58,055 nt of DNA, taken from Ignavibacteriales bacterium. Lineage in GTDB: Bacteria > Bacteroidota > Ignavibacteria > Ignavibacteriales > Ignavibacteriaceae. Below the pieces are notes generated by a model, which saw only the letters and a list, made by a program, of their open reading frames with translations, did no database searches and was not told the DNA's origin. Position numbers and translations under genes: made by a program. The first letter of the stretch is position 1. Each line of letters opens with the position of its first letter. The DNA is taken from the NCBI GenBank assembly GCA_012517155.1, contig JAAYVN010000107.1:1-58055 (forward strand), given 5' to 3'. Shown here piece after piece: positions 56,981 through 57,729 of this stretch.

Positions 56981-57007
56981 AAAAAAAAGAGGCTGATATA
57001 CAGCCTC
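56981..57007 (-). terminator. Rho-independent terminator of the tRNA-Thr locus
   Basis: On the minus strand GAGGCTG pairs with CAGCCTC around a TATAT loop and runs into eight T's, starting ~10 bases after the tRNA 3' end. It shows this was a functional tRNA gene end. Confidence 0.8.
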
Positions 57008-57016
57008 AATATTTTG

Positions 57017-57071
57017 AGCCACTTGCCGGATTCGAACCGGCGACCTGCTCATTACGAATGAGCTGCAGCTC
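57017..57071 (-). tRNA. tRNA-Thr(CGT), 3' part only (5' half missing)
   Basis: The anticodon arm (GCTCA-TTCGTAA-TGAGC, anticodon CGT), variable loop, T arm (GCCGG-TTCGAAT-CCGGC) and acceptor 3' strand AAGTGGC are all present. The D arm and the 5' acceptor strand expected as GCCACTT are absent: upstream sequence is AT-rich and unrelated. CCA is not encoded. The junction sits at a 12-base palindrome, GAGCTGCAGCTC (57060-57071). A tRNA gene cut at the anticodon stem with its 3' end intact is the classic footprint of an element integrated in a tRNA gene; the complete gene would then lie at the far end of the element. Confidence 0.8.
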
Positions 57072-57314
57072 TTTTATTTATATAGACTTACAAAAAAAAG
57101 TACACTAAATTGATACCGGAATATACAAAAAACACTCTTTCAAAGAACCTAAAAAGAGAAAACCACCGGCAGGAAAACTTTAGGGGATTCAATCCTAAAA
57201 CTACCGATGGTTTCTCAATTAAAAATTTCTTTGTTTGAATCCGTTTAAGTTTTCCACCTGCAAACATACAAATAATTTTTGGCGAAGTCAAGTACCCTTC
57301 AAACTTGAAATATT

Positions 57315-57339
57315 GCTGCGGGTTATCAAGTCCCGCAGC
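57315..57339. other. GC-rich hairpin in the element
   Basis: GCTGCGGG pairs with CCCGCAGC (8 bases) around a nine-base loop, 28 bases beyond the stop of the helix-turn-helix gene. It lacks a proper T-run on the minus strand, so it may be a poor terminator or a recombinase/packaging site. Confidence 0.4.
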
Positions 57340-57366
57340 CAAAGGGTTTTTATTCCGGTGGTCTCT

Positions 57367-57729
57367 TTAGTCTTTCAAGTCTTCAATAAATGAAATTTGC
57401 AAAGGAAAATTTCCTTCAATCTGATAACGTTCTGAATAACCCCGACGGCGACCTTGCGTTTTCAGAAAAAATATTATACTTACTGTATCCCCGCTCTTTA
57501 TTTTTTCCATTAGTTGACTTTCTGCAAAGTCAATCGCCACCTCCCGTTCTGAATCAATCCTATCTTTCAAGTCCTGGTTTTTATCCAGATATTTATAAAT
57601 TGTGGTTCTGGATACGCCCAGGCGTTTTGCTATTGTGGAAATATTTCCGTAGCTGTCTGTGATTGCCTGCTCCAAAATTTCCGGTTTGGTTAATGCCGTG
57701 CAGGTGCTTTTTTTTGTTTTTTTCTTCAT
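57367..57729 (-). CDS. Helix-turn-helix protein resembling phage terminase small subunits
   Basis: This 120-residue protein has a DNA-binding helix-turn-helix (ISTIAKRLGVSRTTIYKYLDK, ~residues 30-50) followed by the block DSEREVAIDFAESQLMEKIKSGD and IIFFLKTQGRRRGYSERYQIEG. This combination is seen in small phage and prophage proteins often labelled terminase small subunit, which recognise phage DNA for packaging; some are annotated only as HTH regulators. AAGGA precedes the ATG by ~10 bases. It is the last gene before the tRNA-Thr edge; no terminase large subunit is in view. Confidence 0.65.
   Translation of the reverse strand: MKKKTKKSTCTALTKPEILEQAITDSYGNISTIAKRLGVSRTTIYKYLDKNQDLKDRIDSEREVAIDFAESQLMEKIKSGDTVSIIFFLKTQGRRRGYSERYQIEGNFPLQISFIEDLKD

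Follow-up and report, generated by a model that had tools for sequence, protein, structure and literature searches.

A truncated tRNA-Thr(CGT) gene in an Ignavibacteriales genome as the probable far-end attachment site of an integrated mobile element

Anticodon-centred attachment sites are used by 2083 of the 3919 islands in the Islander database (PMC4383910), and the model generally applied to tRNA sites of this kind places the integrase core sites in the anticodon stem and strand exchange in the 7-base loop (PMC4383910; PMC8371274). At these Islander 'A' sites an intact tRNA gene and a displaced 3′ fragment, in direct orientation, bound the element, a tyrosine integrase lies beside the intact tRNA, and sequence identity starts just before the anticodon stem (PMC4383910). 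The locus described here has each of these features and differs in nothing essential. For the kind of element involved, the closest described systems are the PICIs (PMC6092414), which are about 12-15 kb long, carry an integrase, a master regulator (Stl/AlpA) and a replication module (Pri-Rep) in conserved order, have terS without terL in some cases, lack phage structural and lytic genes, and depend on a helper for induction and packaging.

The window, that is the whole stretch of DNA analysed, is the complete contig JAAYVN010000107.1 (58,055 nucleotides; C22 below) from an assembly of 160 contigs (GCA_012517155.1). Near its right end, direct reading of the minus strand reveals the 3′ part of a tRNA-Thr(CGT) gene, corresponding to tRNA positions 24-74 (Table 1). 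The preliminary description of this DNA held that the gene had been cut at the anticodon stem; truncated it is, although the break falls at tRNA position 24, where the D stem ends, three bases short of the anticodon stem on its 5′ side. Its statements that the 3′ half and terminator are intact and that the 5′ half has been replaced by AT-rich DNA are both borne out, the fragment matching an intact copy elsewhere in the genome at 51 of 51 positions and in the same orientation, the hairpin and T run that follow it being presumably the original host-side terminator of the tRNA gene, and the sequence 5′ of the break being AT-rich and unlike a tRNA. No tRNA is called by ARAGORN anywhere in the window, as expected of a truncated gene, and an Rfam search of the region gave sub-threshold matches only. 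We regard it as highly probable (roughly 0.94) that the junction is, as first suggested, an attachment site, namely the far-end site of a mobile element (element A) integrated in tRNA-Thr(CGT) by its own tyrosine integrase. The case is built from both ends of the element, a 51-bp direct repeat, an integrase gene, relatives in which the site is empty, and two similarly organised sister elements; the site is real and well supported, and of a very common type.

Table 1. Features at the element end of the window, with the basis for each assignment
Feature	Position	Strand	Basis
Terminator-like hairpin and T run, just past the tRNA 3′ end	56981..57007	-	Sequence read directly
Displaced tRNA-Thr(CGT) 3′ part, far-end attachment-site core	57016..57066	-	All 51 bp match C121:3897-3947
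Anticodon stem-loop GCTCA-TTCGTAA-TGAGC, presumed core site of the integrase, the 7-base loop being the overlap region	57047..57063	-	Position from sequence, role by analogy (PMC4383910, PMC8371274)
12-base palindrome GAGCTGCAGCTC straddling the identity edge 57066/57067	57060..57071	.	Sequence, counts, sister comparison
TGATACC, candidate integrase arm-type site, far side	57111..57117	+	Repeat counts
Conserved stretch rich in hairpins, separating terS-like gene from attachment site	57138..57362	-	Some 90% identity with the corresponding stretch of sister C (C98); present in B (C108)
120-aa small-terminase-like helix-turn-helix protein (terS-like)	57367..57729	-	phrog_309, E=3.6e-9
Element gene, C-terminal end, cut by the contig end	57899..58054	-	98% identical in sister B

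An intact tRNA-Thr at the other end of the element had been predicted, and a full tRNA-Thr(CGT) with the same 3′ half and a tyrosine recombinase next to it had been named as the things to look for; a genome search located these two together on a second contig, C121. The intact gene (G000:C121:3897-3970) is the sole tRNA-Thr(CGT) among the tRNA loci examined (30 of the 39 tRNA matches in the genome were read), and the second-best match to the fragment in the genome is only 82% identical. The recombinase (C121:2646-3710, minus strand) is a tyrosine integrase by both PF00589 (E=1.4e-33) and phrog_1 (E=4e-62), with a complete reading frame in which the family-conserved residues are present, and its start lies about 190 bp from the intact tRNA, past the tRNA 3′ end. 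Reading along the plus strands, C22 runs from host through tRNA fragment to element and C121 from element through complete tRNA to host, so the repeats are direct, as they should be after insertion into a tRNA gene's 3′ portion; the order of intact tRNA and downstream fragment is taken from their orientation on the separate contigs. Since no contig carries both ends and the assembly lacks the middle, we infer rather than observe that C22 and C121 carry the two ends of one element. A search of the genome with the contig ends found no contig that continues them; C22 (57900-58055) and C108 (G000:C108:19394-19548) alone have their last 150 bp or so in common, at 98% identity, and this common stretch is the probable cause of the break in the assembly and of the absence of the element middle from the genome bin. 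C121 (L004) also carries, at 133-1714, two tandem paralogous pairs of short genes (131/98 aa and 140/139 aa; identity about 30%), the second family of which occurs in elements of relatives as well (G085, L084).

Judged by its flank on the C121 side, the site is unoccupied in related genomes. In all 29 family members examined a zinc-ribbon TPR gene adjoins an intact tRNA-Thr(CGT), as it does on C121, and none of the 29 has a related integrase beside this tRNA in the stretch covered, which extends about 1.1-1.4 kb downstream in most and less at contig ends. What these relatives carry is the intact, empty gene, rather than the same truncated gene without inserted DNA that the preliminary description had named as evidence to the contrary. 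On C121 (3897-5146) an HU-like gene stands together with the TPR gene and the tRNA, and the TPR-tRNA pair is kept throughout the 29 relatives (L191-L219).

Two sister elements in the same genome repeat the arrangement. In element B the truncated copy is a tRNA-Met(CAT) on C108, and its intact counterpart, on C64, adjoins an integrase 84% identical to that of A; in element C a tRNA-Ser(CGA) is found truncated at the start of C98 and intact on C111, where it adjoins the N-terminal part of an integrase that is cut by the contig end. The stretch identical to the tRNA begins ahead of the anticodon stem, by 3 bases in A, 3 in B and 4 in C. A single-sequence query with the integrase gave no close relatives among genomes and viral contigs, and integrase relatives were recovered with an alignment query. 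In complete relatives the same pair of tRNA and fragment bounds 6.0-9.9 kb with the integrase inside, together with O-like or DnaD-like and DnaB-like replication genes; no structural genes were found among the proteins tested. The closest are a 6.0-kb element at tRNA-Thr(CGT) (PAAX01000011; G079) and an 8.5-kb element at tRNA-Glu (JAMCQL010000075; G085), whose integrases are 38-39% identical to that of A and whose breaks fall at nearly the same position, identity starting 3 bases and 1 base before the anticodon stem respectively. The tRNA-Glu element also has a small cargo protein family in common with C121 (34%), but unlike A neither element has a small-terminase gene of A's type that we could find. 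In two tRNA-Phe elements identity starts 12-13 bases before the anticodon stem and the integrase is at the opposite end; these are complete (L111 9869-17163; L105 9364-19340, G113), with the integrase beside the truncated copy and identity reaching into the D loop.

Element A would have been acquired by recombination between the tRNA gene and an attP that carried tRNA positions 24-74, most likely with exchange in the anticodon loop; such an event would have restored a full-length tRNA next to the integrase and displaced the original tRNA 3′ end to the far side, where the fragment now lies. By analogy with other tRNA sites, the anticodon stem would supply the core sites bound by the integrase, and the 7-base loop the place of strand exchange. 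The preliminary description had tentatively placed the crossover elsewhere, in a 12-base palindrome at the junction. The palindrome is present and straddles the break, but seven of its bases belong to the tRNA and five to the element, and as a crossover region it is unlikely, because the crossover must fall within the 51-bp identical block. Perfect 12-base palindromes are moreover no commoner than chance in the window (23 observed, about 19 expected from composition), and this one shrinks to 8 bp in element B and is missing from element C. We therefore reject it as the crossover and take it to be probably incidental, the anticodon loop flanked by its stem being the likelier place by the analogy drawn above. 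A repeated motif, TGATACC, occurs on both core flanks in all three elements, with integrase-side and far-side copies numbering 4 and 1 in A, 4 and 1 in B, and 2 and 2 in C; the integrase-side copies lie between integrase and tRNA, and the entire window contains eight, counting both strands. Their repetition and position make them good candidates for integrase arm-type sites.

The phage-like genes announced just beyond the junction begin about 300 bp away with a gene for a small-terminase-like protein. Homologues in viral contigs are 42-51% identical, and in eight of ten such contigs examined a large-terminase-like gene starts about 40 bases downstream of the homologue; all three of those eight neighbours that were profile-tested match. 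A ninth contig has a different neighbour, about 135 bases downstream, which is a large terminase by profile. In A and B, by contrast, the 300 bp or so after the terS-like gene hold no recognisable gene; they include the conserved hairpin-rich stretch and lead to the attachment site, and in A no large terminase lies between terS-like gene and attachment site. The hairpin-rich stretch could be a packaging or regulatory signal, and its stems show apparent compensatory changes between A and C (TTTTAGG/CCTAAA against TTTTGGG/CCCAAA). Few strong matches to the terS-like protein were found outside the source genome in a class-wide search.

A lone small-terminase-like gene suggests a phage satellite, a weaker claim than that of the attachment site, and plausible but unproven because the element middle is missing from the assembly. 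Like the PICIs (PMC6092414), element A pairs an integrase at one end with a small-terminase-like gene at the opposite end, next to which no large terminase stands, and its complete relatives are likewise small, carry replication genes and have no structural genes among the proteins tested. It differs in host lineage, and its relatives have DnaD/O-like and DnaB-like proteins instead of Pri-Rep. Within the recovered ends, which amount to at least 4.9 kb, an integrase was found, and neither an Stl/AlpA regulator nor phage structural or lytic genes were identified. The succession of terS-like gene and attachment site in A and B is likewise that of recovered ends, and a large terminase may lie elsewhere in the missing part. 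It is possible, and we propose it tentatively, that A, B and C represent a family of Ignavibacteria phage satellites with a small terminase only, three sister elements in one genome, and a recent switch of tRNA target between Thr-CGT and Met-CAT.

The principal rival to a satellite is an ordinary full-length prophage with its structural genes in the missing part, which would leave the status of the attachment site unaffected. Such a prophage would account for the phage-type integrase and for a small-terminase-like gene at the element end with homologues in viral contigs, but we consider it rather unlikely, as those homologues mostly precede a large terminase or a gene resembling one while in A and B the attachment site intervenes after a stretch without recognisable genes, and as the tested proteins of the complete relatives include replication proteins and no structural ones.

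Other alternatives bear on the junction itself. The tRNA fragment might derive from an old insertion that has lost the ability to excise, and the absence of part of the element from the assembly would suit such an immobile relic; the 51-bp cores are nevertheless still identical and the integrase frame is complete with its conserved residues, which makes a relic improbable and an element that may still be mobile the better reading. That the half tRNA is an artefact of assembly, or a chance similarity, is scarcely credible: the assembly is admittedly fragmented and the contig ends about 1 kb past the site, but the break in the tRNA lies within the contig and not at its edge, and the sister junctions, two independent cases on other contigs, are built alike. 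Read as an attachment site, the junction shows where host chromosome gives way to mobile element, in a class of bacteria that has been little studied, and indicates where the remainder of the element should be found; were the satellite interpretation also true, phage satellites would be extended to a lineage for which a narrow literature search found none described.

The sister-element family is itself modestly interesting with respect to target choice. Integrase clades are known in general to switch between tRNA genes. In a tree of 40 related integrases the targets, under 14 labels of which one is 'none', require 21 changes, the minimum being 13, and the integrases of A and B form a fully supported sister pair, yet have different tRNA targets. 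Near-identical integrases at two tRNA genes of one genome offer a handy natural experiment on how the target of a tRNA integrase changes, and the two proteins differ most in their C-terminal 50 residues, where 26 of 49 positions are identical compared with 84-94% elsewhere.
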